NCBI GenBank assembly: GCA_019454045.1
Contig: SKCR01034781.1
Location: 124,001-188,000, forward strand
Length of the DNA stretch: 64,000 nt
Direction of reading: 5' to 3'
From: Zanthoxylum bungeanum
Taxonomy: Eukaryota; Streptophyta; Magnoliopsida; Sapindales; Rutaceae
Made by a program: the position numbers and the translations under genes. Numbering within the stretch: the first letter of the stretch is position 1; every line of letters begins with the position of its first letter. The notes under the pieces were generated by a model, which saw only the letters and a list, made by a program, of their open reading frames with translations, was not told the origin of the DNA and searched no databases. Of this stretch, positions 13,126 through 47,124 are shown in pieces.

Positions 13126-13130
13126 ATCGG
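13126..13130. other. Ath-1 target site duplication, left copy (ATCGG)
   Basis: ATCGG immediately before the TGACCGG end of Ath-1; the same five bases follow the element at 23181-23185. Five-base duplications are usual for Ty3/gypsy integrases. Confidence 0.95.
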
Positions 13131-14477
13131 TGACCGGCGTAAACACACGCGTATAACACAAGTGCACGTATCGTTCAAGTAGTATAAAAAGTATCGATCC
13201 CACGAGTACTTAATACCTAAGCTATTAATTTTATGAGGTCAAATGATTACTAGTATCTAACAGGTTGTTTGATAGATTTGAAAAGGTGACGATTCTAAAT
13301 TTAAAAATAAGTAAATAAAATTGTTCGAAAGTAGGTTTAAGAAAGTTCACTATTAAAAACTATCTAGGGTTGTGATTTCTTCCAATATCATTTTAAAGAT
13401 GAAGTGGTTATCTTATAGTTGGATAAAATATTGATTTATTAACCTGGAACACTAAATTATGTAAAAGCCTCTTCCGATGGTCAACTACAAATATCCAGTA
13501 TAACCCAATTGAAACATATGTCTATGTCAACCAAATTACCTGGATTCATTAAGATTAAGTTCCAATTATGGCTACCCCCGCCCGACAGGTATATTCCTAT
13601 CCTGTAACGAAATCTATTAAAGGGTTATCTATCCTCAAGGAAGATCGTGGGCTATTGAGTCTAAGGCTGAAACCTAAAATCCCTATGTCTAGTTCATTTT
13701 AGATTTACCAGATCAATTTTATTAATGGCCAGTTAATGAAAAAACATTAAGTTTAAGACTCAATAAATATATCTTTATATTACCCAAGCTATAATCTAAC
13801 CCTTATAAAACGGTGATATTAACAGTCATCACAACCCCAAATAACTAATTTAGTTACAACACATAATTAGGGCTAGTAAAAACTTGAAAATAAAAGACAT
13901 AAAGTAAAAATGTGGAAAGTAATACTGAAAAGTAAATTAGAATAAAATAAAATGCTAAGGTAAAAGGAATTACTTTTACTACTACTAATTTAGATATCTC
14001 CCATAAAATAATATATAAACTTGTGATAATATTACCAACCGACCATATATGCGGTATCCTGATTAAGTCAAATTAAGTCCAACCAGCCATTAAGGCAGTA
14101 AAAAGATTTGTCCATGAACCTGCCATATAGGCGGTAAGAAAGTTTAATTACCAACCGACCAATCTGGCGGTATCCTTTATTAGTCAGGTTTAAATAGTGA
14201 ATATATTATTTTTAAGGGAGATTAATCTAAATAGTAACAGTAAAAGAATTACCTTTCACCCTAGCTGGGGAAGTTACCTCCTCATGGTAAATAGTAAAAA
14301 CTGTAAAAAGTAAAAAGTAAAAATTAAATTATTATTATTACAAAACATAATTAAAATTAATTACAAAACTAAAAAACTAAAAAAACTAAAAATTAAAAGA
14401 AAGTAGAGAGAGAAACTCTCTCTTTAGATAGAATATAAGAGAGAGAATGATGCACTGAATTCTGAAATCTCGAGCTC

Positions 14478-14485
14478 AATTTATA
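14478..14485 (-). promoter_or_regulatory. TATA box of the Ath-1 3' LTR
   Basis: On the minus strand CCTATAAATTGAGC, followed by a CT-rich transcribed region. The same site in the 5' LTR is 22357-22364, which would drive the element's own transcript. Confidence 0.65.
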
Positions 14486-14604
14486 GGCCTCGGTAGGTTT
14501 CCAGCGTCGTGACGCCAAGGCCTCTGGCGTTGCTACGCCAGCTTTTGTCGACGTGGCACGCTCTGGTTCGCCGGTTTGAAAATTCTGGATAAGCTGATAA
14601 GGTG

Positions 14605-14990
14605 ACACATGGCAGAGTGGTTGGGCTTCAATTATTGTGACACGTGGCGGCTTCTGATTGGTCGATGAGATTCTTATCCGCCACGTGTCAGATAAGGATT
14701 AGATACTCAATGATTAATGCTGACGTGGCGGTGACGTGGCGATGACGTGGTGACACGTGGGAAAGAGACTGTCGGCACCGTAGGATTGCGGGCACTTCCT
14801 GATTGGCTGATGATGATGTGGTACGACACGTGGCAATGTTGACTTGTTGACTTGCTGACGTGGCTGAAGATATGGAGACACGTAGGATGACACGTGGCAC
14901 ACATGGCGATTATGACTATCGACACCGTAGGATGCTGACACGTGGCACGGCGTATGTTAGCAGATCGGCTGTGATGGTAACACGTGGCAC
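14605..14990 (-). promoter_or_regulatory. G-box/ABRE array in the Ath-1 3' LTR
   Basis: Seven exact CACGTG cores (starting 14641, 14682, 14754, 14827, 14891, 14939 and 14981), most in the context ACACGTGGC. There are also several TGACGTGG words and ATTGG (inverted CCAAT) words. In the element's direction the cluster lies about 160-510 bp upstream of the TATA box. YACGTGGC is the consensus bound by ABF/AREB-type bZIP factors; that these sites are bound is inference. Confidence 0.65.
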
Positions 14991-15297
14991 GGCGTATTTT
15001 AGCAAAGTCAAACTTTTCTCAGATTCTAATTTGTGGACCCGGTGCACGTTAGCACTGTTCGGCGCATGTTAGGCGTCACGACGGTGAAGGTCTTGGCTTC
15101 GCGACGCGGACAATTTACTGAATTGCCATTTTCGTCTAATTTTCACTGTTTTGGCCCAAATCACCTCCAGAATGTCTTGAAACTTTATTTATCTACAAAA
15201 TAACACAAAATACATCAAAATATTCACAAAAGTCAAGAAACTATACAAAATATTAGGTTAAATGAGTGGGAAATAGTGATAGATTTACCACTCATCA

Positions 15298-16601
15298 CAC
15301 CCTCAAACCTAACATTTTGCTAGTCCTCGAGCAAAACAACAAAATAAAAATAAAATTAAACTAAGCCACTTTCGTAGGGATCACGGTTGCATTTAGCATA
15401 TGCAACAAGCCTTTAAACCCCTAGGTGTCCCTAGTGGACGAGTTATAGTCTCGTGAGGGCTTATAGCAACGATACCCACAAACTTTTTACAAAAGTAAAA
15501 AGATAATAAAACTAATGTACACAAAAGCAAAAAGACAAGAGAAAAGAGAATAAAGAAGTTAGTGACTAATCAGGTGAAACTTCTACTTCAAGTTACTAAT
15601 TGTTTTCTTTCCTTCTAAATTACCGAATAAGTAAATTCTCCGATTATTTTTACCATTCTTCATATACACATCCAATAAAATATTAAACAACTCATTTTTG
15701 CCCACAACAGTCATAAGTGCAGTTGATAAGAGAGTAATATTTTTGTCCTAAAGTCCTATCAGATTTCACACCTTTTTGTAGCAATGGAATAATTTTTCTC
15801 ATTTTTCTGAAATTTTTTTTTTTTATATTCTATTTTTATTTATTTATATACAATACCTTCCATCTATTTAGCGAGTGTTGGGTCGGTGACTCCCAAACCA
15901 GTTGGCTTTAGGGCACCAAGTGTTAAGACACCCCTACGGACTTAATTACTCAGACTTCAGATATATATATTTTTGCAGTATCTTCGATCCATGTAACGAG
16001 CTTTGGGCCAGTGACTCCCAAACCAGTTGGCTTTAGGGCACTAGGTGTTAAAAGACCCTTACAGACTTAATAACTCGGATCTCAGACGTTTTTTTTTTAC
16101 TCCATTTCTTTTTAGATGCTTCCTCCGATTAAACTAGAGCACTGAATATTACAAACTTTTCAATTTAGCTCATGTCCATATGTTACTATATATGTTGATA
16201 ATATCTGTCAACTGAGCATATGAAGATCCATTTTAGTCAATTTTATGGAGAATTCACAAATAAATAATTCAAAATGAAATAAACAAAAATTAACTTGTTT
16301 TTAAATAGGTTTGAGGTACGTCTCAGGAGTGGAAACTCCTTACTCAGCTATCTCTTACCAATTTCACCTTTTTAGTCAAATAAAAATGCAAATTATTTTT
16401 GTAATTTTTGAAAATTTTCCAATTTTTTTGTATTTTTCGAAAAATTTTGGACTAAAAATAAAAATAACACACAAACTAAAAATAAGGTACTGATCAACTA
16501 ATTCCCTCCCCCAAACCTAAATGAGACATTGTCCCCAATGTCTTAAACAGTAAAAGGAGAGTTAAGAAGGTCGTACCTGGTTAGCTGAAATCTACAGGAA
16601 A
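15298..16601 (-). other. Ath-1 3' non-coding region with polypurine tracts
   Basis: No credible gene. Next to the LTR (15298-15311) the minus strand reads AGGTTTGAGGGTG, the polypurine tract. A second similar tract, AGGTTTGGGGGAGGG, is at 16503-16517. It adjoins a hairpin GACATTG-GGGA-CAATGTC at 16525-16542. Two imperfect direct repeats of about 125 bp lie at 15858-15985 and 15986-16090. The same arrangement, in the opposite orientation, is found in Ath-2 at 43386-44626. Confidence 0.75.
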
Positions 16602-17255
16602 TTAAAGTTTAAGATCTAGATTAACACAACGCCTCTTACCACGATCGTCCTCGGACCAATTTATCTTTGAAAGGATGGGGTCAAATTGTGGTTCATAGGC
16701 TATGAGTTGGTCTATTAGATCCGGAGCAGTTCTGGCAGTAAAGAGGAGTTCTTTTAAAGGTTTTGACACGAACCCATTTCTCCGAGCATCATCAAGAAAC
16801 ACACAAAGAAAATCATAAAATCCATCAACGTTGAGCTGTCCAATTGGTTTCTGGTGTATGTTCAGGTTCGCCCAAGATAGTACTATAAAAATTTCCTCCA
16901 ATGTGCCCAAGCCACCTGGCAAAGCAATAAAAGCATCAGCACGGTTAATCATTTCTACCAGTCGTTCAGACATACCTGGCACGATCAGTTCCTCTCCGTT
17001 TGATGATCCAATAAGATTTGCCTCTGCCAAGGGTTTTGGGATGATTCCCAAAACGTGACTGCCTCCTTCCTGTACTGCCTTTGAAACGATCCCCATAAGT
17101 CCGAGATTGCCTCCGCCATATATTAAGTGCATATTCCTTGCAGCTAAGACTCGACCTAATTCTTGTGCTGCTTCTACGTATTGTGGTTTAGTTCCAACAC
17201 TACTACCGCAAAACACACAAATGTTTTCAACCCGTCTTCTTGAAGTGGCTTCCAT
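16602..17255 (-). CDS. LOG: LOG-type cytokinin riboside 5'-monophosphate phosphoribohydrolase, carried by Ath-1
   Basis: LOG enzymes release active cytokinin base and ribose 5-phosphate from cytokinin nucleotides, mainly in the cytosol and nucleus. This 217-aa ORF spans the whole family length with no intron, although plant LOG genes are normally multi-exon. Visible signatures: ICVFCGSSVG (residues 12-21), a GGGNLGLMG phosphate loop (47-55), ERLVEM (97-102) and the hallmark PGGLGTLEE (113-121). R98 and E121 sit at the usual catalytic positions; the lysine that normally follows the arginine is leucine here. It has the same sense as gag, downstream of ORF163, inside an intact LTR pair, and a TATA box lies about 60 bp before the ATG. 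The frame is free of stops while gag-protease is not. The identification as LOG is firm; activity and expression are unknown. Confidence 0.93.
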   Translation of the reverse strand: MEATSRRRVENICVFCGSSVGTKPQYVEAAQELGRVLAARNMHLIYGGGNLGLMGIVSKAVQEGGSHVLGIIPKPLAEANLIGSSNGEELIVPGMSERLVEMINRADAFIALPGGLGTLEEIFIVLSWANLNIHQKPIGQLNVDGFYDFLCVFLDDARRNGFVSKPLKELLFTARTAPDLIDQLIAYEPQFDPILSKINWSEDDRGKRRCVNLDLKL

Positions 17256-17310
17256 TTTTTATGTATTTCTTTCTCAACTCTGGATGCCTTCAAAAGTGCA
17301 ATGACGGGCT

Positions 17311-17320
17311 GAATTTATAG
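17311..17320 (-). promoter_or_regulatory. TATA box upstream of LOG
   Basis: CTATAAATTC on the minus strand, about 60 bp before the LOG ATG, leaving room for a leader of about 30 nt. Ath-2 has the same word at the same distance before its LOG remnant (43083-43092). This suggests the capture included, or evolved, a core promoter. Confidence 0.55.
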
Positions 17321-17513
17321 TACCTGAAAAGGGTGAGTAAAAATAGCACAAGTATCTTCCAGAGGACGATTAGTAGCGAAATAATATCGTGATATTCAAA
17401 AAGGTCTGGATCCTGTCTGAGAAAATAAAAGAAAACAACAAAACAAATCACAATTATTAAGAAAAGACAAAGAGATATAACATTTACAAGAAAAGTAACG
17501 GCTTGATTAACGT
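17321..17513 (-). other. ORF163-LOG spacer with a splice-acceptor-like site
   Basis: Minus-strand sequence is T-rich and ends in TTTTCTTTTATTTTCTCAG at about 17417. This is a good plant 3' splice-site shape (polypyrimidine tract plus CAG), upstream of LOG. In Ath-2 the matching place reads TTTTCGCTGAC and has lost the CAG. Use as a splice site is inference. Confidence 0.4.
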
Positions 17514-18005
17514 CTATGCGTCAGGGACAAGCTTCCCATCCAATTTTCTTATAAATTGGCAAACGGGGTCTTTTTGAGTCAGATTCCCGAGACTTAATTG
17601 TTGTCTTTCTTTTTGGAACTGTGTATGTAATTTGCGAATGGCTATGTGAACATATCCACTGGGATGCGTCTCAAGAGTTAAAGATATATCATCTAAATAC
17701 TCCTTACTCAAGCCATCCTTAATGAATTTAATTTTGTCTTCGCGATTATCAGACACCATTCCTAAAGAACGACAACGAGTATTGCAATTCCAGCGTGCAC
17801 ATTTGTAACAAACACCCATTTGTTTAGCGCTACGTTTCTTTGCATTTGGGCTTCTTCTAAAACCAGGCAGATGTGAAATAAAAGAGTCAGAAGACTCACC
17901 TGCCAATCGGACTCGTGCTTCAATTACCCAACGAATGTCATTAGGAATACCTTTGATCATCAGTAGTCTCATCCGTTCCAAGCGAGCTTTGTAGACTTTC
18001 ATCAT
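17514..18005 (-). CDS. ORF163, basic protein with a four-cysteine cluster, carried by Ath-1
   Basis: 163 aa, uninterrupted, same sense as gag, 258 bp upstream of LOG. The N-terminal 40 residues look helical and basic. A basic patch RRSPNAKKRSAK (50-61) is followed directly by C66-x2-C69-x4-C74-x3-C78, then NREDKIKFIKDGLS (87-100). A basic stretch leading straight into a Cys cluster resembles the small cysteine-rich nucleic-acid-binding proteins of betaflexivirid plant viruses. That is a shape-level resemblance only, not a database match. It could equally be a host-derived or Athila-specific protein. It takes the place where other Athila elements have an env-like ORF. Ath-2 keeps only fragments of it (around 42810-42890). 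Confidence 0.7.
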   Translation of the reverse strand: MMKVYKARLERMRLLMIKGIPNDIRWVIEARVRLAGESSDSFISHLPGFRRSPNAKKRSAKQMGVCYKCARWNCNTRCRSLGMVSDNREDKIKFIKDGLSKEYLDDISLTLETHPSGYVHIAIRKLHTQFQKERQQLSLGNLTQKDPVCQFIRKLDGKLVPDA

Positions 18006-18227
18006 AGATTTTTGAGGGAGAGAAGGAAATTGCTTGTGAAGATTTGCGAGAGCTTATTCCATCGTGAAATGACTAAACCTGCAAAAATTAAACACACAAA
18101 AATAAAACACACCAGATCACAATATATACAAAAATTGCATGGGTTGCCTCCCTGCGAGCGCTAAGTTTAAAGTCGTCAGCTAGACGTGACTTCTTGAACG
18201 TTAGGCTAGATCTGAAAGTGTGACACT
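18006..18227 (-). other. Ath-1 pol-ORF163 spacer with a splice-acceptor-like site
   Basis: After the polyprotein stop comes the word GGGAGGCAACCCATGCA (minus strand, around 18145), also present in Ath-2 (about 42679) as an AGAGAGGCAACCC variant. T-rich sequence then ends in TTTAATTTTTGCAG at about 18079, a plausible 3' splice site before ORF163. Ath-2 has TTTTTGTAG at about 42767. Confidence 0.45.
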
Positions 18228-18662
18228 TTATTTTTGTCGCTCAAATGATTCTCCCCAGTAGTGCTTAACACGCTTGTTTTTAACCTTGAAAGTTTTGTTG
18301 GAGTCAGGATTATGTATCTCAATGGCTCTGTCTGGTAAAACCTTGGTGATCACAAATGGACCTGACCACCGTGATTTTGGCTTCCATGGGAAGAATTTCC
18401 CCCTTGATTTGTTTAACAGTACCTTCTGCCATGGTTCCAGTTATATGCGCACTATCTTCTCATCATGTCTTTTCCTTGCCTTTTCCTTGTACAATTTGGC
18501 ATCCTCAAAAGGCTGTATGTGAAATTCCTCCAATTCGTTGAGCTGGTGGAACTTTTTCTCTTCTGTTGCTTGTAGTGCAAGAATAGGCTTCTTCAGTACG
18601 CAGTGCGCTTTATCTTCAGGCTCCAAAGGTAATTGACATGCTTTAAGTTTGTCAGTAGAACT
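18228..18662 (-). pseudogene. Ath-1 integrase C-terminal tail, fused after protease
   Basis: Continues in the same frame as gag-protease. From about 18626 it reads HQLNELEEF and AKLYKEKARKRHDEKIV, then SRWSGPF and KVKNKRVKHYWGE, the conserved end of Athila-type integrases. One internal stop (TAA, 18441-18443). There is no RT, RNase H, zinc-binding or DDE core sequence before it, so several kilobases of pol were lost while the frame was kept. Confidence 0.8.
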
Positions 18663-20870
18663 TTATCTTTCATCAGAGTTCTGAACGGTACTATGTATCA
18701 CATCAAGTATGAAACATTCCTCATTCTTTTCATCATATGGGAAATTCATGGCTTTGAAAACATTGAATGTTACTTCTTGGTCTTGTACCCTCATGGTTAG
18801 TTCTCTTTTTTGTACATCAATAATGGTTCGACCTGTAGCCAAGAATGGTCTCCCGAGGGTGATTGGCACGTCTGCGTCTTCTTCCATATCATGGACAATA
18901 AAATCTGCTCGGAAAATGAATTTGTCAACCTTGACCAGCACATCTTCAACTACACCGCTCGGAAATACGAGCGTTCTATCAGCAAGTTGTAGTGAGACTG
19001 AAGTTGGCATTGTTTCTCCAATCTGCAATTTCCTGAAAATAGAAAAAGGCATCAAGTTAACACTAGCACCTAAATCACACAAAGCCTTACCAAAGTTATG
19101 TTCTCCTATGACGCAAGGAACAGTGAAACTGCCAGGATCTTTCAATTTTGGGGGAAGTTTCCTCTGAATGATAGCGCTGCATTCTTCTGATAATGCTACT
19201 GTCTCGTAATCTCCCAATATCCATTTTCGTGAAAGAATATCTTTCATGAATTTGGCATAGGTGGGCATTTGTTCCAACGCTTCTGTAAATGGAATGTTGA
19301 TATGCAGCTTTTTGAAGATCTCCAGGAACCGAGAAAACTTCTTGTCCAATTTGTTCTTCTAAAGATGTTGAGGAAAAGGTGGAGGTGGAGTGATCTGTTC
19401 TTTTTCCTTTGCTTCTTTTTCCTCCATCTGTTACTTTGTTTCTTTTGGAACTTCCTCAGCAGTTGTTTTGGCTCCAACATCTTTGTTGATTTCAGTACCG
19501 CTTTTTAACATGATGGCATGACATTGCTCATTCCCCATGTTCCTTGGATTTGGCTCTGTGTTGCTAGGAAGGGTACCTGGCGGTCTGTAACTCTGAGCAT
19601 TTGCCAGTTGTCCCATTTGATTCTCCAGTGCTTTAATAGAAGCAGATTGACTTTGAATTAATGTTGCTTGGGATTGAAACATAGCATCATATCTTGCTGC
19701 TTGAGAGTCATGTTTTGCTTCTAACTTTTTCAAGTGGGTCAACACTTATGTTATTCCTGGTTCATTTGCTTGCTCCTGGCTTTTGTTATGTTGCTGGAAT
19801 TCAGGTGGTGGATAGTTCTGCTGTTGGCCTGAATTGTTGCTCTATGAAAAATTGGGATGATTCCTCCACCCTGGGTTGTAGGTGTTGGAATATGGATTGT
19901 TCCCCCGTCTGTTGAAATTGTTGACAAAATTCACCGTTTCTTCAAGTTGGTTTGACTCTGGTGTTCCTCCATATGGTGAACTTGTGGATCCAGTGGTAAG
20001 AGTCTCCATGAATTTGCATATCTGATCTAGCTTGGCGTTGACTGCTGTATTGGGTCCACTTTCATAAATTCCTGTAATTCTTTGGATCATGCTCCTTTCT
20101 GTTGGCCACAAGGAATTGTTGTTGGCCATTTCTTCGATTAGGTCCCAGGCTTGATCTTCTCCTTTTTCCATTAAAGCTCCTCCAGCAGCAGCATCGATTG
20201 TGGTTCTCATTATTCCAGAAAGTCCATTATAGAATGTTTGGACTTGAAGCCATTTTGGAATCTCATGGTGAGGACATTTCCGGAGTAAATCTTTGTACCT
20301 TTCCCAAGCTTCGCAGAGGGATTTTGAATCTTGTTGTACAAAGGATGTGATGTCATTCCTCAGTTTTCCGGTTCTGGCTGGTGGAAAGTATTTTGCAAGA
20401 AATTTGGTGGCTAAAGTGTTCCATGTTGTGATAGAACCTGCTGGTAGTGAATGTAGCCAAGCTTTAGCTTTATCCTTCAAGGAGTATGGAAAAACTCACA
20501 GTCTCATTGCTTCTTCTGATGCTCTTTTGTAGTTAAAAGTACCGCAAACTTCCAGGAAGTTACTGATGTGGGCATTAGGATCTTCAGTTGCATTCCCCCC
20601 TAACTGAACTGACTGCTGAATCATCTGAATGCATGTTTTGATGTCACACACATTTGCTGGTAAAAGAGGAAGTACAATACAGGAAATGAGTCTGTCAACC
20701 ACCGGAATGGTTCTGTCTCGAATGGGAATTGGTGGTGCAACATTCAATGGTTCAGGTTCCATGTTGACTAAAGCTTCTTGGCCTTCTCGTCTTTCCCTTC
20801 TCAACTGTCTGATGGTTCTTTCAATTTCCGGGTCAAGCGGTCAGAGTTCAAAGCTTCTAGTTCGTCTCAT
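18663..20870 (-). pseudogene. Ath-1 gag-protease polyprotein, interrupted by stops
   Basis: A single reading frame from the ATG at 20868-20870. Gag shows KAKAWLHSLPAGSI and LAKYFPP, then DLLRKCPHHEIPKW (about 20470-20270), and NQMGQLA (about 19620), typical of plant gypsy gag. Protease (about 19200-18800) shows the Athila-type active-site word CDLGASVNLMP and the late LGRPFLATG. Stop codons at 20841, 20496, 19842, 19746, 19431, 19359 and 18663 (low coordinates) interrupt it, but there is no frameshift over this span. Each stop could arise by one C-to-T or G-to-A change. It cannot be translated as one protein without readthrough. Confidence 0.88.
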
Positions 20871-20976
20871 GAATTTTCTGAGAACCTGAAACACAAGAAA
20901 ACAAAAACAACAAGTAAAAAGAAATTAGATACAAGTAACGTATCTAACCCCTAAACTAATAGAAAACGATAAATAA

Positions 20977-20996
20977 GTCACCGGCAACGGCGCCGA
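20977..20996 (-). other. Ath-1 primer-binding site, tRNA-Asp type
   Basis: The plus strand reads CACCGGCAACGGCGCCGAA, close to the 3' end of plant tRNA-Asp, as known for Athila elements. It lies a few bases inside the 5' LTR. Ath-2 has the matching TGGCGCCGTTGCCGGTGA at 41219. Confidence 0.75.
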
Positions 20997-21001
20997 AAAC
21001 T

Positions 21002-23180
21002 TGACCGGCGTAATCACACACGTATAACGCAAGCGCACGTATCGTTCAAGTAGTATAAAAATTATCGATCCCACGAGGACTTAATACCTAAGCTATTAAT
21101 TTTATGAGGTCAAATGATTACTAGTATCTAACAGGTTGTTTGATAGATTTGAAAAGGTGACGATTCTAAATTTTAAAATAAGTAAATAAAATTGTTCGAA
21201 AGTAGGTTTAAGAAAGTTCACTATTAAAAACTATCTAGGGTTGTGATTTCTTCCAATATCATTTTAAAGATGAAGTGGTTATCTTATAGTTGGATAAAAT
21301 ATTGATTTATTAACCTGGAACACTAAATTATGTAAAAGCCTCTTCCGATGGTCAACTACAAATATCCAGTATAACCCAATTGAACCATATGTCTATGTCA
21401 ACCAAATTACCTGGATTCATTAAGATTAAGTTCCAATTATGGCTCCCCCCGCCCGACAGGTATATTCCTATCCTGTAAGGAAATCTATTAAAGGGTTATC
21501 TATCCTCAAGAAAGATCGTGGGCTATTGAGTCTAAGGCTGAAACCTAAAATCCCTATGTCTAGTTCATTTTAGATTTACCAGATCAATTTTATTAATGGC
21601 CAGTTAATGAAAAAGCATTAAGTTTAAGACTCAATAAATAAATCTTTATATTACCCAAGCTATAATCTAACCCTTATAAAACGGTGATATTAAAAGTCAT
21701 CACAACCCCAAATAACTAATTTAGTTACAACACATAACTAGGGCTAGTAAAAACTTGAAAATAAAAGACATAAAGTAAAAATGCGGTAAGTAATACTGAA
21801 AAGTAAATTACAATAAAATAAAATGCTAAGGTAAAAGGAATTACTTTTACTACTACTAATTTAGATATCTCCCATAAAATAATATATAAACTTGTGATAA
21901 TATTACCAACCGACCATATATGCGGTATCCTGATTAAGTCAAATTAAGTCCAACCAGCCATTAAGGCGGTAAAAAATATTGTCCATGAACCTGCCATATA
22001 GGCGGTAAGAAAGTTTAATTACCAACCGACCAATCTGGCGGTATCCTTTATTAGTCAGGTTTAAATAGTGAATATATTATTTTTAAGGGAGATTAATCTA
22101 AATAGTAACAGTAAAAGAATTACCTTTCACCCTAGCTGGGGAAGTTATCTCCTCATGGTAAATTGTAAAAACTGTAAAAAGTAAAAAGTAAAAAGTAAAA
22201 ATTAAATTACTATTATTACAAAACGTAATTAAAATTAATTACAAAACTAAAAAACTAAAAAAACTAAAAATTAAAAGAAAGTAGAGAGAGAAACTCTCTC
22301 TTTAGATAGAATATAAGAGAGAGAATGGTGCACTGAATTCTGAAATCTCGAGCTCAATTTATAGGCCTCGGTAGGCTTCCAGCGTCGCGACGCCAAGGCC
22401 TCTGGCGTTGCTACGCCAGCTTTTGTCGACGTGGCACGCTCTGGCACGCTCTGGTTCGCCGGTTTGAAGATTCTGGATAAGCTGATAAGGTGACACGTAG
22501 CAGTGTGGTTGGGCTTCAATTATTGTGACACGTGGCAGCTTCTGATTGGTCGATGAGATTCTTATCCGCCACGTGTCAGATAAGGATTAGATACTCAATG
22601 ATTAATGCTGACATGGCGGTGACATGGTGACACGTGGGAAAGAGACTGTCGACACCGTAAGATTGCGACACGTGGCACTTCCTGATTGGCTGATGATGAT
22701 ATGGCACGAATCGTGGCAATGTTGACTTGTTGACTTGCTGACGTGGCTGATGACATGGAGACACGTAGGATGACACGTGGCACACGTGGCAATTATGACT
22801 GTCGGCACCGTAGGATGCTGACACGCGACACGACGCATGTTAGCAGATCGACTGTGATGGTGACACGTGGCACGGTGCATTTTAGCAAAGTCAAACTTTT
22901 CTCAGATTCTGATTTGTGGACCCGGCGCACGTTAGCACTGTTCGGCGTATGTTAGGCGTCGTAACGCTGAAGGTCTTGGCGTCGCGACGCGGACAATTTA
23001 CTGAATTTCCATTTTCGTCCAATTTTCACTGTTTTGGCCCAAATCACCTCCAGAATGTCCTGAAACTTTATATATCTACAAAATAACACAAAATACATCA
23101 AAATATTCACAAAACTCAAGAAACTATACAAAATATTAGGTTAAATGAGTGGGAAATAGTGATAGATTTACGACTCATCA
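21002..23180 (-). repeat. Ath-1 5' LTR
   Basis: 2,179 bp, ends TG...CA. It carries the TATA box at 22357-22364, a G-box array at about 22490-22885 upstream of it, and perfect GCGTCGCGACGC palindromes at 22382-22393 and 22979-22990 flanking the array. The target duplication ATCGG follows at 23181-23185. Confidence 0.95.
22357..22364 (-). promoter_or_regulatory. TATA box of the Ath-1 5' LTR
   Basis: CCTATAAATT on the minus strand, downstream of the G-box array and upstream of a CT-rich start region; the expected core promoter of the element's transcript. Confidence 0.65.
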
Positions 23181-23575
23181 ATCGGCCGATTGGATTGGCC
23201 AATTCTTGTCCTCTTTTTTTCACTTAGGCCGAATAGCCTTCGAAATCCATCTAGGCCGAATAGGCCACAGATTTTTTTTTCAGCTTGGCCGAAAGAATCA
23301 AGAGCAATTGGCTTCTCTGTCTTTTAAAGACTGCCAATTTCTTCTCTCTCAATAGGGCAAATTTGTTTCTCCTTGGGAGATCAAATTTGTTCCATTTGTT
23401 CTAGCTAACACTTATGGGAGTCAAATGAAGGTGATAAATTACCCATGAGCTTGGAAGCTTCAACATCCATGAAAAGTTTTGAACTCAACCGATCAATGTA
23501 AGTCCTCCGTAACTTATTTTTGATTATTATTCACACACGAATCACACTTAGAGATCCTATGGCATGTCTAGGACA
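23181..23575 (+). repeat. Cop-2 3' LTR, second part
   Basis: Continues the Cop-2 LTR after Ath-1. It has more GGCCGAAT words, then the family's end pattern: a GAAGGTGATA-like word, CTCAACCGATCAATGT, and an end in GGACA. The exact end is an estimate. Confidence 0.65.
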
Positions 23576-32779: not shown

Positions 32780-34977
32780 AAAAAAGAAATAATTCTCTCT
32801 TCTCCTCCTCTCATCACCGAAACCATAACCCCTAAACACCATCATCACCGAAACCCCCTCCAAAACAGAAAACATCATCACTAAAACAGTCACTTAATTC
32901 CTCACTGCCACAACCGAAATAAAATAGTCCTGAAACAGCCCTACATTCACCGAAAACACATGCCCAAACCATAGCTTAAACCGCCGAAAATCACAGCCCA
33001 AAACATTCCCTGGAGTGACCGCAAAACAGCAGCCCCAATACCCATTAAAGAACGCCAAAACAGTCCCTTAATACAGTGAAAAAAGTGACCAGAAAATACA
33101 GCAAAAAAACAACAGCAAAACAGAGGAAACGACAACTCAAAACAGTGAACTAGCGAACGAAAGCAGCGGACCAGTGAACCAGAGGAGTTGTGGAGCATAA
33201 ACCTTTCCGACGGCCGTGTGTAACGCCCTTTCGAGGGACGACCTAAGAGGTTAGACCTGAGGGCACCCTTCTTATTTATTCTCATCTTTTTTTTGTTGTT
33301 TATTAGAATTCCTTCGCATGAGAGTCATTTGTTGATAGATGTTGTGGTCCTTGAATGAATGGAATATGTGTTCTCTCTTGTGGTATATCAGATGGAAACC
33401 CGGATGTAAATTCCGTATCCGAATCCAAATGGACGGTATCGCGATTTGCACTCGGGATATAATGCCACGTACCACTTGAGAGATTCACACATTTCATTTC
33501 ATCCAACCTTGTATTCGAGCATGATTGGGTTGCTAGTATGTTATTTATTTTTTAAGAATGATTGGGTTGCTACTCGGGATACAATGCCACATACCAATTG
33601 CTTTATTTACGCATGCATTGCATTCTTGTGCGCATGGGCTAACTAGGGTGGATTAAAGGTCCTCTATTCGAGGGAAATGCCTGAAGACTACATTTTCCAC
33701 GATGTTTTGCCGTGCCGGACGAGGTGCACCCGATTGAATGTGAAATGTGTTCCATCGGGCACACGAGGTCCTACATTGTGTATTTGTTTATCCATGCATG
33801 TGTTTTTGTCATTTTAGATGCCATTCTGGCAATCTCGTTCGAACACATTTCCAAACGCTACACGAATGTATGCATTCTGCCTCATTCCATTCCAACACGT
33901 TTCCAAATGCTACACGAACATATGCATTCTACCTCATTCCGTTCGAACGTGTTTATGAACGCTACACGAACGTATGCATCCTGTCTCATTCCGTTCGAAC
34001 GTGTCTCAGAACGCTAAAGGAACGTATGTATTCTGCCTCATTCCGTTTGAATGCGTTTCCAAATGCTACACGAACATATGCATTCTGCCTCATTCCGTAC
34101 GAATGCATTTACGAACGCTATATGAACGTATGCATCCTGCCTCATTCCGTTTGAATGCGTCTCAGAACGCTACACGAATATATACATTCTGTCTCATTTC
34201 CATTCGAACGCGTCTTAGAACGCTACTCGAATGCACATGCATTATATTGTATCATGCATCAGGTCTTATCCCGTTCGAACGCGTTATCAAACGCTATACG
34301 AACGTGAAAATTATGTTTATCGTTCGAACGCGTTATCAAACACTACTCGAACGTTTGCATTCTGTTTACCTTTCGAACACGTTTATGAACGCTACATGAA
34401 CGCACGCATACTGGACAGATTCCTTCATCATGTTTCATGCATGTTTGTTCCCTTAGTCATTCCATTCCCCATCATATGCTAAGTTAGCTCTCTTCAATAT
34501 TTATGCCTTTACCGTTATTGTTTGTTTATATTTTCTGTATTTATTCGATATGCTCATCAAATTGTGTGCTCACTTTTATCATCAATGCCTTTATAGTTAT
34601 TATTAGTTACATTATTGCACTTTATTGCTTAATACGTTCATAAATTATGTATTTTGCCTTCATTTCTTTCATTTACGATTATGGGTGTGCAAACTTGCAT
34701 GTTGCTTAAATTATCTGGAAACATATGTTGCATGAGATTTGGTTGTACTATTGCATAAATCCTTTCACAACAAGTGGCATAAGTAAGGGACCATTCTGAA
34801 CCCAATGGTTTGAGGTATTCCCTTGTGAGGGGTGAGTGCGACCTTAAATCATTTTCCCGGTTCACATCAGGTGGCGACTCCATTTTTAGTTCTCCGATTT
34901 AAATCCTCTGTGGGCTATTCCGTACTCCCAATCGGGCCTCGAGCCCGGGACAGCGTCACTGATTTCTGTGTCCTACA
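32780..34977 (+). repeat. Tat-1 5' LTR, promoter end missing
   Basis: Aligns with the 3' LTR from about 60555 onward. The upstream part, which in the 3' LTR carries the TATA box, is absent, so this LTR should not start transcripts. Ends CCTACA. An antisense ORF (32947-33285) recurs in the other LTR only because the LTRs are copies. Confidence 0.85.
33825..34400 (+). repeat. Tandem TTCGAACG-rich repeat in the Tat-1 5' LTR
   Basis: About nine imperfect units of 55-65 bp. Each has CGTTCGAACG-type palindromes, AACGCTACACGAACGTATGC and CTGCCTCATTCC. The same array is at 61925-62285 in the 3' LTR. ORFs read through it because of its composition. Confidence 0.85.
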
Positions 34978-38600: not shown

Positions 38601-39249
38601 CCCGACCCTCGAGGAAAAAGAGGAAACCGAGGAAGACCCAGCTGTGGGAGATGAAGCATCTATGGAGGATGAAGATGTTTATCTCTCTGATTTATTTGAA
38701 TGTATTCCCGCATCTGCTAGCAATAAAGACAATCATTTCGCTTACTTGCATGAGTCTCTTCCTTTCAATTTGCACGACTTGAGTATATTTGATATCAACT
38801 CCACCAAAACAAATGCATTTAACCTTGGTACACCTGAGAGCCCCAAGGAAATTCTAATTGCAAGTGAGGTTACCTCTGAAGAACGGGAGAAATTAGAAGA
38901 AATATTAGCCAAATATGCCAAAGTATTTGCTTGGTCCTATGAGGACATGCCTGGAGTAGACAGAAGCATTGCCCAGCATACAATACTAACTTATCCAAAT
39001 ATGAAGCCAGTGAAATAGAAACTTCGACGGATGAGGCCTGAGTGGGCCGAGAAGGTCAGAGAAGAAGTCAAGAAACAGATAGATGTGGGATTCCTAGAAG
39101 TAGTGAAGTATCCTGAGTGGTTTGCAAATATTGTGTCGGTGCCGAAGAAAGAGGGGAAGGTCAGAATGTGTGTTGACTACAGAGATCTTAACAAGGCTTG
39201 CCCGAAAGATGATTTTCCTCTACCTCATATAGACATGCTAGTTGATAGT
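38601..39249 (+). pseudogene. Tat-1 reverse transcriptase, N-terminal part
   Basis: An acidic linker, then the RT start: FAWSYEDMPGVD (about 38927), RRMRPEWAEKVREEV (about 39026) and VDYRDLNKACPKDDFPLP (about 39173). One stop (TAG, 39016). The frame runs up to the insertion point of Ath-2 and resumes at 56845 with no base lost except the target duplication. Confidence 0.88.
39245..39249. other. Ath-2 target site duplication, left copy (ATAGT)
   Basis: ATAGT before the TGATGAG start of Ath-2; repeated at 56840-56844 after its end. Confidence 0.95.
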
Positions 39250-39504
39250 TGATGAGTGGTATTTATATCACTATTTCCCACTCATCTAACCTAATATTTT
39301 GTATAGTTTCTCGGGTTTTGTGAACGTTTTGATGTGTTTTATGTTATTTTGCAGATAAATAAAGTGGGAAAGCATTGGAAGCAATTTGAGGCCAAAATAG
39401 AAAAAAAATGACAAAAGGGCAATTCGGTAATTTTCCAGCATCGTGACGCCAAGACCTTCAGCGTCACGATGCCTAAAGTGCACTGGTCATACTAACGTAC
39501 GCCG

Positions 39505-39860
39505 AGGGACACGTGTCAGAATCTGAGAAATTGGACTTGCTAACGTGCGCCAGATCTTGCTAACGTGCGCCGGTTGCCACGTGTCATCATCACACAAGAT
39601 CTGCTAAAATACGCCGGCTGCCACGTGTCGAAATCTCATTAGACCAAAGCAAGCGCGTGCCACGTGTCAATCTCTCATTGGACCGAATTTTGGACAAATC
39701 ACATGTTGCCACGTGTCGACCTCTCATTTGACCGATCCTAAGCTCGTGCCACGTGTTAACTTTTCATTGGACCAAAAAGCCAGCCAATTACCATGCGCCG
39801 CGTGTCACCTTTTGATTATGCCGCTCTGTCGCGTGACATGTGTCACCTCTTGATTATGCC
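39505..39860 (+). promoter_or_regulatory. G-box/CCAAT module array in the Ath-2 5' LTR
   Basis: CACGTG cores start at 39510, 39578, 39622, 39661, 39710 and 39750. From 39620 on they form a tandem unit of about 40-47 bp: TGCCACGTGTC, then TCTCATTGGACC (inverted CCAAT). The cluster ends about 200 bp before the TATA box, the position of a proximal promoter. Confidence 0.65.
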
Positions 39861-39957
39861 GACATCATACGCGTGGTCAAACCGCGTGACTAGATACGCG
39901 TGTTGGCGCTGCGACGCCAGAAACTTCAGCGTCGCGACGCCAGAAGCCAATTTTGCC

Positions 39958-39965
39958 TATAAATT
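39958..39965 (+). promoter_or_regulatory. TATA box of the Ath-2 5' LTR
   Basis: CCTATAAATTCAGG just after a GCGTCGCGACGC palindrome (39929-39940) and downstream of the G-box array. Confidence 0.65.
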
Positions 39966-41218
39966 CAGGCTTTCTTAACTTAATTTGGTGTGCTTTCCTT
40001 GGGAGCTTTTCCCTGTTTTTAGAGGATTGCATCTAGTTTTTGTAAATATAAATAATATTTAATTTTTATATTTTATTTTTCAGTAATAATAATAGTTCCT
40101 TTTCTTCTTTTTTCTTTTATGTTTTCTGCTGGGGTAAAAGGTGAAATATTTAATATAATTATCTAGGTAAATCTCACTTAACTGTAATTTATAAATTATA
40201 ATTTAACCGGATTAATTAATGTCAGACTTTATTACCGCCTATATGGTCGGTCTAAATATAAATTACTTTACCGCCTATATGGCTGGTCTTTATATGACAG
40301 ATAATTACCACCTATATGGCTGGTGTAGTTAGACTAAATGGATTACAACCTATATGGCTGGTTTTAAATTTTTGAAATTATTAATTCCTGATAAAGCAGA
40401 ACATAAAATAATTTATATATTATAATAAGTGAGATTCCTAGATAAGAAATATTAAATGTGGATCCTCTAACCCCAACATTTTATTTTATTCTAGGGAAGT
40501 GATGAAACACAATATTCACACTTAATAATTGATTTTCTTTTTATTGGTAATTCTTTAGTTTGTTTATTGAGTCTTAAGCTTAATGCTTCTTGTTGTCTGA
40601 TCACCAATAAGATTGATGTGGTAAACTTAAAATGAATTACACATAGGGATTTTAGGTTTCAACCTTAGATTCAATAGCCCACGATCTTCCTTGAGAATAG
40701 ATAACCCTTTAATAGATTTCCTTACAGGATAAACATATACCTGTCGGGCAGGGGTAGCCATAATTGGAACTTAATCTTAATGAATCCAGGTAATTTGGTT
40801 GACATAGACATATGGTTCAATTGGGTTATACTGGGTATTTACATCTGACCATCGACAGAGGCTTTTACATATTTTCGTGTTCCAGGTTAGCAATCTAATT
40901 TATTACACATAGATAAGAGATTCAATTCATCTTTATAATATATTGTGTGGAGTCACGACCCTAGATCTTTGAGTCTTTTCTTTTATTTTCCTTAGTATTT
41001 TCTTTTGAGTCTGTTTTTATTTTTTATTAGAAAATCCACATTCAACCTACCAAAAGCAATCAATTCCCTTCTCTCTATAATTATATACCTGTAAATAAAT
41101 AGTATCAATAATTAATAACAACATTAGGAATTAAGTCCTCGTAGGATCGATATTTTTATACTACTTGAACGATACGTACGCTTGCGTTATACGTGTGTGT
41201 TTACGCCGGTCAAGTTTT

Positions 41219-41236
41219 TGGCGCCGTTGCCGGTGA
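41219..41236 (+). other. Ath-2 primer-binding site, tRNA-Asp type
   Basis: TGGCGCCGTTGCCGGTGA, close to the complement of the tRNA-Asp 3' end, six bases after the LTR. Confidence 0.8.
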
Positions 41237-41341
41237 CTTATTTTTCTTGAGTTATTAATTTTGAAGCTATCTAATTTACTTGTATCTAATTTTCTTTATT
41301 TTTATCTTTAATTTTTATTTCTTTCTTTTGTTTTCAGGTGA

Positions 41342-41682
41342 TTGAAAAATGGAACATTATTGGGAGATCGAGAAATCACGAGCTTTACAAGAAGATACAC
41401 CCCAAATCTGGGAGCAATAGTCCGGTTTTCTGAGGCTGTTGTCCAGCCTAACAACTATCACTGGATGTCAGGATCAAGCAATACTACATTTGCTCATCAG
41501 AATGAAATGGGGAGATGTGTAATTTGTTATGGTAACAACTCGAGCGATCAAGGCATATATACTTTTCAAAGTGGCAGAATTATCAGAATCATTCAAGGTA
41601 CGAAGAACCATCACATTTTCCATCTTATCCACCATCTACCTACGATCTTCATCAACAATCAGAACCATCAGAAGAAGATCAG
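41342..41682 (+). pseudogene. Ath-2 gag remnant
   Basis: A frame with QPNNYHWMSG and a cysteine-containing CVICYGNNSSDQ (about 41518-41553), like the C-terminal knuckle zone of Athila gag. It changes frame before 41683: a second frame reads EEPSHFPSYPPSTYD and runs into the acidic ORF. The central gag domain seen in Ath-1 is absent, so most of gag was deleted. Confidence 0.5.
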
Positions 41683-42408
41683 ATGATTGACATGCCCAAA
41701 GATTGGTTCAAGAAACGAGACGAAGAGTTGGATACGATGCTTGAAACATACCAGAATCAACTCGAAAGTATTCAGAGACAATCAGAATTCATTCAGAGAT
41801 TGACAGATCAGACGAGACAATTAACAGAAAACCAGAGCTACATACCTCATGGATTATTTTCAGATGACACTTATGAAGCCTTCGAGTACCAATCATTTCA
41901 CGATGACACTTTAACAGAGGATGAGGCTGAGCAGAATCAGGAATCTGAGGTATCAGTTCTGGAGCTTGAACCAACAAAATCTCGGTTTGATTTTTATTAT
42001 TCCGACTCTGACGAGGATGAAGAAGCTGAGCTATTTGTACCAACTGCACCAACAAAGGAGGATGAAACTTTTCAGCCTCAAAATGAAGATTTTGGAGAAT
42101 GCTTTGCACAAATGTTTGAAGAAGATCTATCTGAGCCAATCACATCAGCCTCAGAGGATGAAGACCTAATGTCAGACACATCTTTATATCTTCACGTTGA
42201 TACTTATGGAGCATGCATTTCATTGATGACAGATGAAGAACTGAACTCAGAAATCCTAAAATACATATGGGAAGAAAAAGGTGGAGCAAAACAGAGCAAA
42301 TGGAGGAGCAAATGTCTGAGCTTATTAAAGATCCAGAACATTAAGGAGAAACATCACTGTTTTGGGGAGTACAGATCAAAAACATCAACCAGAAGCTTGA
42401 CAGAATGA
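41683..42408 (+). CDS. Ath-2 acidic 241-aa ORF
   Basis: An uninterrupted frame. Residues 1-60 are a heptad-like, Gln-rich helical segment (LETYQNQLESIQRQ, LTDQTRQLTENQSY) that corresponds to the NQMGQLANAQSY part of Ath-1 gag. Residues 60-190 are strongly acidic, with a DSDEDEEAE run. The C-terminus is short and basic. No enzyme motif is seen. It is probably the C-terminal gag arm kept by this non-autonomous element; the reading frame continues upstream of the ATG I used, so the true start is uncertain. I cannot tell whether it is expressed. Confidence 0.5.
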   Translation: MIDMPKDWFKKRDEELDTMLETYQNQLESIQRQSEFIQRLTDQTRQLTENQSYIPHGLFSDDTYEAFEYQSFHDDTLTEDEAEQNQESEVSVLELEPTKSRFDFYYSDSDEDEEAELFVPTAPTKEDETFQPQNEDFGECFAQMFEEDLSEPITSASEDEDLMSDTSLYLHVDTYGACISLMTDEELNSEILKYIWEEKGGAKQSKWRSKCLSLLKIQNIKEKHHCFGEYRSKTSTRSLTE

Positions 42409-43150
42409 AACTTCCATTCCAAGTCAAGCACCATACGAGACCTCCTGCTTTTATTTCTTTCTTTTCAGGAACCACTGGAGCAATAAAATTTAAAAAGGTG
42501 GCACAAGCACGAAATATGATAAAATTCTTTTTGCCACTTTACTGTTGGAAGAGACCCTTCAAAAGCAACACTCATGGGATTATCTTTAATCGGACATCCA
42601 AAATGACACTGAAACCTCATTGATAGATGGATTTCAGTCACGTCTGGCTGAAGATGAAAAATTTAGCGCTAGCAGAGAGGCAACCCATGCACTTTGTTGT
42701 AATGTGTATTTTTATATTTTGTGTATACATGTTGTAGAGTTTTAAATTTTGTGTGTTATTTTTGTAGGGAAAAGCTCAACCAAAGCATAAGACAGAAGGA
42801 ATGGTGTTTGGCAAAGAAGAGAGCTAATTCATTTGTGATGGCTGAGTAAAGAATGAATTCTTGAGACGCATCCTAATGGATTTATTTACCAAACGAGTGG
42901 CGTATTGCGTACACAATTCCGTTGCCTTAATAATTGCTTTGATTTGCTTTTCTTTTGTTATTTTCTTTTATTTTCGCTGACAAGATCTATACTTTTTGAC
43001 TTTTCACGATTTATTTTAACGCTCATCTAATAATTGTCATTTGGCAGATACTAGTGCAATTATTACTCACCCATTTGCAGGCTCTATAAATTCAGCTCTA
43101 CATTTCTTTCTTCGACACATCCAGATATACATCCAAATAAGAGAAAGAAA
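42409..43150 (+). other. Ath-2 region with ORF163 remnants and splice-like sites
   Basis: Decayed sequence matching Ath-1 between pol and LOG: the AGAGAGGCAACCCATGCA word (42675), a TTTTTGTAG acceptor-like site (42767), a short piece matching the AKKR part of ORF163 (about 42813), and CTTGAGACGCATCC (about 42862), matching the LETHPSG part. Stops and a deletion remove the rest, including the cysteine cluster. The TATA box CTATAAATTC at 43083-43092 precedes the LOG remnant. Confidence 0.6.
43083..43092 (+). promoter_or_regulatory. TATA box upstream of the LOG remnant
   Basis: CTATAAATTC about 60 bp before the ATG at 43151, the same word and spacing as in Ath-1. Confidence 0.5.
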
Positions 43151-43309
43151 ATGGAAGCAACTTCACAGCAGCAAGTCAAGCGAATTTGTGTTTTCTATGG
43201 ATCCAATTCTGGTAATGAACCAGAATTCATTGAGGCTGCAAAGGAATTGAGGAGAGTCATAGCAGAACGAAATATGCACCTAGTATATGGCGGTGTAAAT
43301 TGGACATAG
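43151..43309 (+). pseudogene. LOG: LOG remnant of Ath-2 (52 codons)
   Basis: Starts MEATS as in Ath-1 and runs through the family's N-terminal strand (ICVFYGSNSG) to ERNMHLVYGG. It then ends at a TAG where the phosphate loop should continue. The sequence jumps to the bases that follow the LOG stop in Ath-1 (TTTCAGCTAACCA), so about 490 bp were deleted, including the PGGxGTxxE active site. Over the shared part the two proteins differ at roughly 40% of positions, so the copies separated long ago. Non-functional. Confidence 0.85.
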
Positions 43310-44626
43310 ATCTTAATCGGTATTTTTTTCTGTAAAATTTCAGCTAACCAAGTATTATCTTCTAAACTCTTCGTCTACTGTTTAAGACATTGGGGACAAT
43401 GTCTCATTTAGGTTTGGGGGAGAGAATTAGTTGACCAGTACTTTGTTTTTAGTTTGTGTGTTGTTTTTATTTTTACTCTAAAAGTTTTCGAAAAATACAA
43501 AAAAATTGAAAAATTTTCAAAAAATTACAAAAATATTTTGTGTTTTTGTGTTTTTATTTTGACTAAAAAGGTGAAATTGGTAAGAGATAGCTGAGTAAGG
43601 AGTTTTCACTCCTGAGACGTATCTTAAACCATTTTTGAAACAAGTTAATTTTTGTTTATTTCCTTTTGAATTATTTAATTTGTAAATTCTCCATAAAACT
43701 GACTAAAATGGATCTTCATATGCTCAGTTGGCAGGTATTATCAATATGCATAGTAACATACGGACATGAGCTGTAATTGAAAAGTTTGTAATATTTAGTG
43801 CTCTAATTTAATTGGAGGAAACATCTCAAAAAGTAATGGAGTAATAAAAAAAAACGTCTGGGATCCGAGTTATTAAGTCTGTAAGGGTTTTTAACACCTA
43901 GTGCCCTAAAGTCAACTGGTTTGGGAGTCACTGGCCCAAAGCTCGCTACATGGATCAAAGATGCTGCAAAAATATATATATCTGAAGTCTGAGTAATTAA
44001 GTCCGTAGGGGAGTTTTAACACCTGGTGCCCTAAAACCAACTGGTTTGGGAGCCACCGACCCAACACTCGCTACATAGATGGAAGGTATTGTATATAAAA
44101 AAAATCAAAAATCAAAAAAAAAATCAGAAAAAATCAGAAAAAATTATTCCATTGCTACAAAAGGTGTGAATTCTGATAAAACTTTAGGACAAAAAATATT
44201 ACTCTCATATCAACTGCACTTATGACCATTGTGGGAAAAAATGTGTTGTTTAATATTTTTTTGGCTGTGTATATGGAGAATGGTAATTATAATCGGAGAA
44301 ATTTATAATTACAAAACAACTAGTAACTTACAGTAGAAATTTCACCTGATTATTCATTAACTTTTTTTATTCTCTTTTCGCTTGTCTTTTTCTTTTGTAT
44401 GCATTAGTTCACTACCTTTTTACTTTTGTAAAATGTTTGTGGGTATCATTGCTGTAAACCCTCATGAGACTACAACTCGTCCACTATGGACACCTAGGGG
44501 TTTAAATGCTTGTTGCATAAGCTAAATGCAACCGTGATCCCTATGAAAGTGGCTTAGTTAATTTTATTTTTTTTATTTTATTTTATGTTTTGCTCGAGGG
44601 CTAGCAAAATGTTAGGTTTGGGGGTG
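43310..44626 (+). other. Ath-2 3' non-coding region
   Basis: The counterpart of 15298-16601 in Ath-1. Hairpin GACATTG-GGGA-CAATGTC at 43386-43403, a first polypurine tract AGGTTTGGGGGAGAG just after it, two direct repeats of about 120 bp (about 43858-43965 and 43966-44090, each with CCAACTGGTTTGGGAG-like words), and the LTR-adjacent tract AGGTTTGGGGGTG at 44614-44626. No gene seen. Confidence 0.8.
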
Positions 44627-45174
44627 TGATGAGTGATATTTATATCACTATTTCCCACTCATCTAACCTAATATTTTGTATAGTTTCTCGGATTTGTGAA
44701 CGTTTTGATGTGTTTTGTGTTATTTTGCAGATAAATAAAGTTGGGAAAGCATTGGAAGCAATTTGGGGCCAAAATAGAAAAAAATGACAAAAGGACAATT
44801 CAGTAATTTTCCAGTGTCGTGACGCCAAGACCTTCAGCGTCGCGACGCTTAAAGTGCACCGGTCATGCTAACATGCGCCAAGGGACACATGTCAGAATCT
44901 GAGAAATTGGACTTGCTAACGTGCGCCGGATCTTGCTAACCTGCACTGATCTTGCTAACGAGGGTCGGCTGCCACGTGTCCTCATCATAGAAGATCTGCT
45001 AACATGCGCCGGCTGCCACGTGTCGAAATCTCATTAGACCAAAGGAAGCGCGTGCCACGTGTCAATCTCTCATTGGACCTAATTTTGGACAAATCACATG
45101 TTGCCACGTGTCGACCTCTCATTTAACCGATCTTAAGCGCGTGCCACGTGTTAACTTTTCATTGGACCGAAAAG
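44627..45174 (+). repeat. Ath-2 3' LTR, first part
   Basis: Starts TGATGAGTGATATTTATATC and includes part of the G-box array (about 44885-45150). Interrupted by Cop-4; the last five bases AAAAG (45170-45174) are the duplicated target. Confidence 0.93.
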
Positions 45175-47123: not shown

Positions 47124-47124
47124 A

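Follow-up and report, generated by a model that had tools for sequence, protein, structure and literature searches.

A LOG-fold gene with an EAR-like tail and a carlavirus-like neighbour in an Athila-like LTR element of Zanthoxylum bungeanum

What use could a plant LTR element have for a LOG gene? The question is raised by an open reading frame of this family inside an LTR element of Zanthoxylum bungeanum, within a 64,000-nucleotide stretch of DNA that we analysed as a whole (hereafter the window). The original prediction described the ORF as a captured, intron-free cDNA carried by a mobile element and proposed that its product activates cytokinin.

The LOG gene and the elements that carry it

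The ORF (16602-17255, minus strand) encodes 217 amino acids, opens with ATG, contains zero internal stops and lies on the same strand as the gag ORF. It matches the Pfam Lysine_decarbox profile (1.5e-34) and TIGR00730 (4.8e-49) and has the LOG-family fold with the PGGxGTxxE motif, so that the ORF is indeed full-length and intact as first described. Its alignment with Arabidopsis At2g37210 (PDB 2a33) is gapless over residues 4-203 (E 4.6e-61); the ORF is therefore free of introns over these residues, and the predicted absence of introns holds to that extent. An AlphaFold model has a mean pLDDT of 86.8 with a confident LOG domain, and the closest solved structure found by Foldseek is again 2a33 (Arabidopsis LOG3, E 1.7e-23).

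The ORF sits within an LTR element of 10,050 bp on the minus strand (element 1, 13131-23180). The 5' LTR (21002-23180, minus strand) and, in element sense, the 3' LTR (13131-15297, minus strand) were found by self-BLAST and their ends checked. Read as 23180-21002 and 15297-13131 they are 95.25% identical over 2190 columns with 70 mismatches, and both have the termini TGATGAG..CCGGTCA. A 5-bp target-site duplication, ATCGG, flanks the element at 13126-13130 and 23181-23185, confirming that LOG lies in gag sense within an LTR element bounded by such a duplication. The primer-binding site (20978-20995, minus strand) matches the complement of the tRNA-Asp 3' end at 16 of 18 bases. Together with a gag ORF fragment (19842-20480, minus strand; Retrotrans_gag 7.7e-22), the paired TG..CA LTRs, the duplication and the primer-binding site identify element 1 as an LTR retrotransposon. 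Further along its minus strand are an aspartic-protease-like ORF (18663-19349), recognised by eye from DLGAS and without a Pfam match at 0.001, and a C-terminal remnant of integrase (18339-18644; tblastn with residues 10-111 of the Rhamnella protein P0225, 39%, E 3e-15). The order in element sense is thus LTR, gag, protease, integrase remnant, zinc-finger gene, LOG, LTR.

Reverse transcriptase, RNase H and the integrase core are absent from element 1 and its pol is incomplete: the protease-like ORF ends at 18663 and the integrase remnant begins at 18644, which leaves no space for them. This copy is incapable of moving on its own, which corrects the description of the host element as mobile. 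The label Athila-like, for an element from which reverse transcriptase is absent, comes from primer-binding sites of the tRNA-Asp type (16 and 17 of 18 bases) and from published elements of this kind. The two LTRs differ by about 3%, so the intactness of LOG in element 1 is little evidence by itself.

A second element of a related family lies on the opposite strand (element 2, 39250-56839, plus strand), with the target duplication ATAGT at 39245-39249 and 56840-56844. Sequence comparison places its 5' LTR at 39250-41212 and its 3' LTR within 44627-56839, split into 44627-45174 and 55408-56839; a nested insertion of about 10 kb (45175-55407, plus strand) interrupts the latter. Element 2 appears to be without gag and pol. 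An acidic ORF of 241 amino acids (41683-42408, plus strand), with no Pfam match at 0.001, follows the primer site of element 2 and precedes the post-pol region. Searching the window with LOG by tblastn revealed a LOG relic in element 2 (43151-43320, plus strand) composed of codons 1-48 (43151-43294), a deletion, and a tail relic in another frame, KLDIDLNR (43297-43320). The sequence after LOG is 86% alike between the two elements over 1661 columns. LOG thus occupies an equivalent position in members of two distinct families that lie within the same 64 kb.

The two elements also share a leader, CAGGtaCTATAAATTCAGC, predicted to contain a TATA box and/or a 3' splice site. It lies at 17308-17326 (minus strand), 52 nt before the LOG ATG of element 1, and at 43078-43096 (plus strand), 54 nt before that of element 2. 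The pattern CAGGnnCTATAAATTCAGC has exactly two matches in the window, even when two mismatches are allowed, and two matches arose in 0 of 100 shuffles; because the elements are related, shared descent contributes to this likeness. The leader could function as a TATA box, as a 3' splice site, or in both ways. The homologs P0009 and P0011 have the N-terminal extension HFQVYKFSS, whose back-translation is consistent with the same leader.

A LOG-family ORF in an Athila-like element is of a kind already in print: LOG extra ORFs are described in plant Ty3/gypsy elements of Citrus sinensis, C. clementina and P. trichocarpa in the accessible text of PMC9289625. The likeness extends to the LOG-domain ORF itself and to the Populus proteins that fall in the clade of the window LOG. 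That text, as far as it is accessible, mentions no repressor tail, changed pocket, shared leader or carlavirus-like neighbour, and to this extent a repressor-like tail, a single pocket change, the shared leader and a carlavirus-like partner go beyond it. The words 'lonely guy' and 'cytokinin' are absent from the accessible portions of PMC13317346 and PMC7264820. In the literature search, which left most subscription papers out of reach, neither a repressor tail nor a carlavirus-like ORF was reported for such elements, and a changed adenine/prenyl pocket in element LOGs was likewise not found. Steinbauerova et al. (2011), cited in PMC9289625, reportedly described additional LOG (YgdH) ORFs in Athila-like, Ty3-gypsy elements earlier.

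One LOG clade with a changed pocket and a leucine tail

The search for LOG homologs scored 7998 candidates, of which 7818 passed an E-value of 0.001; family counts were taken from the best 120. Named hosts among these are Populus, Xanthoceras, Reevesia, Diplodiscus and Paulownia, and some clusters represent 28 to 39 sequences (P0066, P0091, P0096). A length filter dropped 23 of the 120, and the remaining 97 were thinned to 54. For comparison, a set of cellular LOGs was seeded with AtLOG3 and AtLOG8 only; 18 of the 120 matches listed were dropped by length, leaving 102, which were thinned to 49, or to 28 for a second tree.

The resulting tree places the window LOG and the 54 homologs on one side and the 49 cellular LOGs on the other, with a branch support of 100/100, although unsampled cellular groups could be nearer, because the seeds were AtLOG3 and AtLOG8 only and four angiosperm LOG groups are named in the accessible text of PMC11593424. 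The split is unchanged without the tail and pocket columns (54 homologs, 28 cellular rows), and the window LOG nests with P0001, P0002, P0003 and P0005. Identity within the clade falls to about 50-55% and the length of 217 residues is mostly held. We infer from the clade and its multi-copy clusters that the other members, known from proteins alone, also reside in elements. The original prediction had held that an ORF confined to this one copy would be a chance insertion; the equivalently placed LOG relic of element 2 and the 54 homologs in a single clade lead us to reject a chance insertion. The proposed captured cDNA fares differently in its two parts: an origin from a spliced copy fits the gapless alignment, whereas a recent single capture gives way to a family with a long divergence. 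We also rejected a viral origin. A single-sequence search of viral contigs with the window LOG found no relative, and the 25 loci detected by a scan of the same contigs with the LOG alignment reach 25-50% identity in their best segments and are taken, from this low identity, to be distant LOG relatives; no close viral relative was found in these contigs.

The substrate site of LOG enzymes offers a direct view of function. For CgLOG, five residues are proposed to form the prenyl site (Met96, His97, Lys100, Glu125 and Trp129), and differences in the MmLOG pocket have been linked to a different product range (PMC4979012, accessible text). The window LOG retains the catalytic residues Arg98 and Glu121 (Arg99 and Glu122 in CgLOG) as well as the Met and Trp of the prenyl site. 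Conversely, its His, Lys and Glu are replaced by Ser96, Leu99 and Ile124, and the cytokinin-specific set of residues is thus incomplete. Across the 97 homologs, Glu122 is kept in 95, Arg99 in 87, the phosphate-loop residue Gly118 in all 97, Thr119 in 95 and Trp129 in 96; His97 is kept in 31, Lys100 in 10 and Glu125 in 10. All 102 cellular LOGs retain these three and the other scored site residues. On the tree built without pocket columns, one change suffices to explain the pocket state, and the whole canonical pocket is retained in the early-branching rows P0031, P0040, P0059, P0091 and P0102. With the adenine/prenyl pocket changed once and the catalytic residues mostly kept, canonical cytokinin activation is doubtful. 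The description of the gene as cytokinin-activating is accordingly in doubt for the lineage of the window, and the same three residues are changed in most of the family.

Arg99 is substituted in 10 of the 97 homologs (8 Gln, 1 Cys, 1 His), which suggests that catalysis is not kept in every lineage. P0009, P0011, P0013, P0017, P0018 and P0025 read EQ at this site, and Gln is also found in P0028 and P0108. The P0009 lineage, with six of the ten losses, still has an open frame.

The second distinctive feature is the C-terminus, KRRCVNLDLKL (16605-16637, minus strand), a basic stretch followed by LDLKL, which conforms at the sequence level to LxLxL, one of the two consensus forms of the EAR motif. 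Extended LxLxLxL copies of that motif are mostly C-terminal (PMC9956375, accessible text). Among the 120 matches listed for each set, LxLxL occurs within the last 15 residues in 84 homologs versus 0 cellular LOGs (it lies elsewhere in the protein in 6 of the 120 cellular LOGs). Of these 84, 81 also have a basic triple there, and such triples are found in 104 of the 120 homologs versus 1 of the 120 cellular LOGs. Of the 97 homologs that passed the length filter, 92 carry a basic triple within their final 15 residues. The basic stretch of the window copy, KRRC, is weaker than the KKRK of the family. Residues 203-217 have pLDDT values under 50 in the AlphaFold model; the tail is thus predicted to be disordered, as expected of a short linear motif.

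A relaxed form of the terminal pattern fits 47 of 55 non-redundant rows (the window and the 54 homologs). In these 47 rows the three final leucines vary little (entropies 0.49, 0.40 and 0.42 bits) and the residues between them vary more (2.58 and 1.98 bits), a contrast that is partly built in because the rows were picked by that pattern. The variation between the leucines led us to reject a simple DNA repeat as their source. The eight rows that do not fit either have altered or truncated ends (P0017, P0028, P0044, P0069) or branch early (P0031, P0059, P0091, P0102). The strict LxLxL is missing from the last 15 residues in 36 of the 120 homologs listed, some of them truncated, and the strict pattern changes state 8 times on the tree. 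An early lineage formed by the Xanthoceras rows and P0031 ends in KKRRLA or KRRRLD and retains the canonical pocket; LDIDLNR, matched by the tail relic of element 2, is the terminus of the P0009 lineage. P0040 combines the canonical pocket with the leucine tail, so the tail may predate the pocket change.

Taken side by side with AtLOG3 and AtLOG8, the element LOG shares the fold, PGGxGTxxE, the catalytic Arg and Glu and the phosphate loop; it differs at three of five prenyl-site residues, is without introns, and has the KRRCVNLDLKL tail in place of the cellular C-terminus.

Several measures bear on selection. The original prediction took an inactive protein together with a dN/dS near 1 between copies as a sign that function is not retained; the comparison could be run on LOG codons 1-48 only, where elements 1 and 2 give pN 0.21, pS 0.78 and a saturated dS, a bootstrap upper bound for dN/dS of 0.27, and 16, 11 and 22 changes at codon positions 1, 2 and 3. 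Entropy per site in the element LOGs is correlated with that in cellular LOGs (rho 0.51). In three small close clades, variable sites avoid the columns conserved in cellular LOGs (one-sided Fisher p 0.034, 0.020 and 0.051), a pattern by which recent constraint on LOG is weakly shown.

A carlavirus-like zinc-finger gene upstream of LOG

Directly preceding LOG in the order of element 1 is a gene of 182 codons (17514-18062, minus strand) resembling the nucleic-acid-binding proteins (NABPs) of carlaviruses. Neither this ORF nor the leucine tail figured in the original prediction. The window copy has a stop at codon 3, and an ORF of 163 amino acids remains from 18005. Its cysteine cluster reads Cys66-x2-Cys-x4-Cys-x3-Cys78. 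The ORF (17514-18005) has 263 homologs at E 0.001, and the 120 of these listed include the named hosts Xanthoceras, Populus, Acer, Orobanche and Rhamnella. At E 0.01, 34 of 35 aligned members match Carla_C4 (PF01623) and 33 of 35 match Viral_NABP (PF05515); the window ORF alone scores 22.8 bits with PF05515, just below the 23-bit cut-off. Several UniProt records name the carlavirus and betaflexivirus proteins of these two families RNA silencing suppressors. The two groups are alike in these profile matches and in a basic stretch followed by a four-Cys cluster; they differ in that the element gene, of about 180 aa, sits 3' of integrase in an LTR element, and the structural support for the likeness is weak. 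The structure model has a low-confidence pLDDT of 59.6, and with it 0 of 49 Foldseek hits reach E 0.001; ranks 1-8 are all betaflexivirus proteins (E 0.07-0.46), six of them carrying the name RNA silencing suppressor. Structural kinship to betaflexivirus proteins is at most suggested by this low-confidence model.

Searching genome contigs with the zinc-finger alignment identified one locus, L001 (3330 bp), filed under a Nomurabacteria MAG. It encodes a plant-type Gypsy integrase (PF00665) with the NABP-like gene directly behind and is likely plant carry-over in a bacterial bin. P0225 from Rhamnella likewise joins an integrase-like stretch and an NABP-like part in one protein. Between the window and L001 the NABP-like gene has a dN of 0.19, a dS of 0.92 and a dN/dS of 0.21 (bootstrap 0.13-0.31), with 36, 23 and 62 changes at the three codon positions. 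The 983 bases of L001 downstream of this gene contain no LOG match, which shows that LOG is not a constant neighbour of the NABP-like gene. In element 2 a weak NABP remnant (LETHPNGF; 42860-42919, plus strand) is matched by 6 of 7 queries in a 1.9-kb tblastn search (6.5e-4). No relative of the zinc-finger family was found in the viral contigs.

Possible roles of the LOG-fold protein

Our main reading, to which we give a probability of roughly 0.45, is that Athila-like elements carry LOG as an accessory gene for a nuclear LOG-fold protein, with an EAR-like tail that would engage TOPLESS. A plant LOG transcript, already spliced, was likely captured once by an Athila-like LTR lineage, where the ORF would act as an accessory gene for a protein predicted to be nuclear. 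The C-terminal LxLxL tail is predicted to recruit or occupy the host co-repressor TOPLESS; since LxLxL is a short motif, it limits the weight of this predicted binding. A separate 3' transcript could start from the TATA-like box or result from splicing at the conserved CAG|G. Once in the nucleus with TOPLESS bound, the LOG protein might alter host transcription or the silencing of the element while the element is expressed. Because the tail is predicted both to target the nucleus and to bind a gene-repressing complex, the element likely uses LOG to steer the host cell. The LOG domain itself probably binds a nucleotide, judging from its retained residues, and may hydrolyse it, the target not necessarily being a cytokinin precursor. 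The neighbouring protein, from the family of the carlavirus silencing suppressor, may serve the same end, and the two genes would then form a 3' accessory cassette of a kind kept by viruses. A fuller version, in which a carlavirus-type silencing suppressor and a TOPLESS-hijacking nuclear LOG-fold protein with a new nucleotide target in place of cytokinin activation make up a two-gene counter-defence cassette behind pol, is unlikely.

The pocket and tail data bear equally on the readings that compete with this one. A working cytokinin-activating enzyme would raise active cytokinin, favour dividing cells and so bring new copies to the germ line; the close fold of Arabidopsis LOG3, the retention of Glu122, Arg99 and Gly118 in most homologs and the canonical pocket of the five early-branching rows all agree with it. 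We nevertheless consider such an enzyme unlikely: the window's lineage has Ser, Leu and Ile in place of three residues invariant in cellular LOGs, Arg99 is gone in a tenth of the homologs, including the P0009 lineage with its open frame, and the window ORF scores 116 bits against the NCBIfam equivalog model CtkRMPhLog, far below the cut-off of 300. A pocket changed once around kept catalytic and phosphate residues would equally suit a LOG-fold nucleotidase with a changed target (AMP or N6-modified AMP, for example) that affects a pool of nucleotides or a signal and uses its tail for nuclear location only, and the MmLOG pocket is a precedent for a shifted product range (PMC4979012, accessible text). 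This view has to accommodate the loss of the catalytic Arg in the P0009 lineage, its substrate is putative, and the conserved tail calls for a separate reason; we regard it as quite unlikely.

Tolerance of that Arg loss and the basic triple near the end of 92 of 97 homologs could also mean that LOG serves the element's own cycle as a scaffold, its basic and leucine tail acting in nuclear import or packaging and not in host repression. Alternating leucines with free spacer residues are more in keeping with a repression motif than with an import signal, we know of no element-cycle scaffold role for LOG proteins, and the idea seems to us very improbable. Still harder to credit is that LOG is a passenger of no use to the element, a decaying host cDNA left from one chance acquisition. 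The loss of reverse transcriptase and most of integrase from element 1, the stop at codon 3 of the zinc-finger gene and the internal deletion of LOG in element 2 look like decay; against it stand a single clade that has diverged to about 50-55% identity with its length mostly held, site-wise constraint resembling that of cellular LOGs, and the matching position of LOG in element 2.

The preferred reading of a TOPLESS-directed accessory protein has counterparts among pathogen effectors. HaRxL21 (PMC7446885) and Jsi1 (PMC8126959) are described in the accessible texts as tested TOPLESS-binding effectors with EAR motifs, and the likeness proposed here is that a protein foreign to the plant cell bears a short LxLxL. 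Those proteins come from pathogens and have been tested, whereas here the carrier would be a resident retroelement and the TOPLESS binding is predicted from sequence. Another parallel is the AlkB/2-ODD ORF of Phalaenopsis Gypsy elements, an m6A demethylase with activity demonstrated in vitro (PMC9289625, accessible text): a host-derived enzyme domain is likewise fixed in a plant Gypsy lineage, and the enzyme differs.

Plant LTR elements are usually viewed as passive targets of silencing. A lineage that keeps a host enzyme fold, a repression motif and a relative of a viral suppressor would make retrotransposon counter-defence testable with two small proteins, and if the cassette proposal were true, transposable elements would contend with silencing and transcription in the host in the same way as viruses and the effectors of pathogens.

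Three Populus members of the clade (P0043, P0052 and P0086) are annotated as the cytokinin enzyme LOGL10. They may belong to retroelements and yet be counted as LOG genes of the host, a warning for annotation. Elsewhere in the window, two overlapping ORFs of repeated units lie at 59498-60254 (plus strand), the longer one without a Pfam match; a tandem array with a 52-bp period occupies 33784-34199; and an RNase H-like ORF (57248-58048, plus strand; RVT_3 1e-18) evidently comes from another retroelement.
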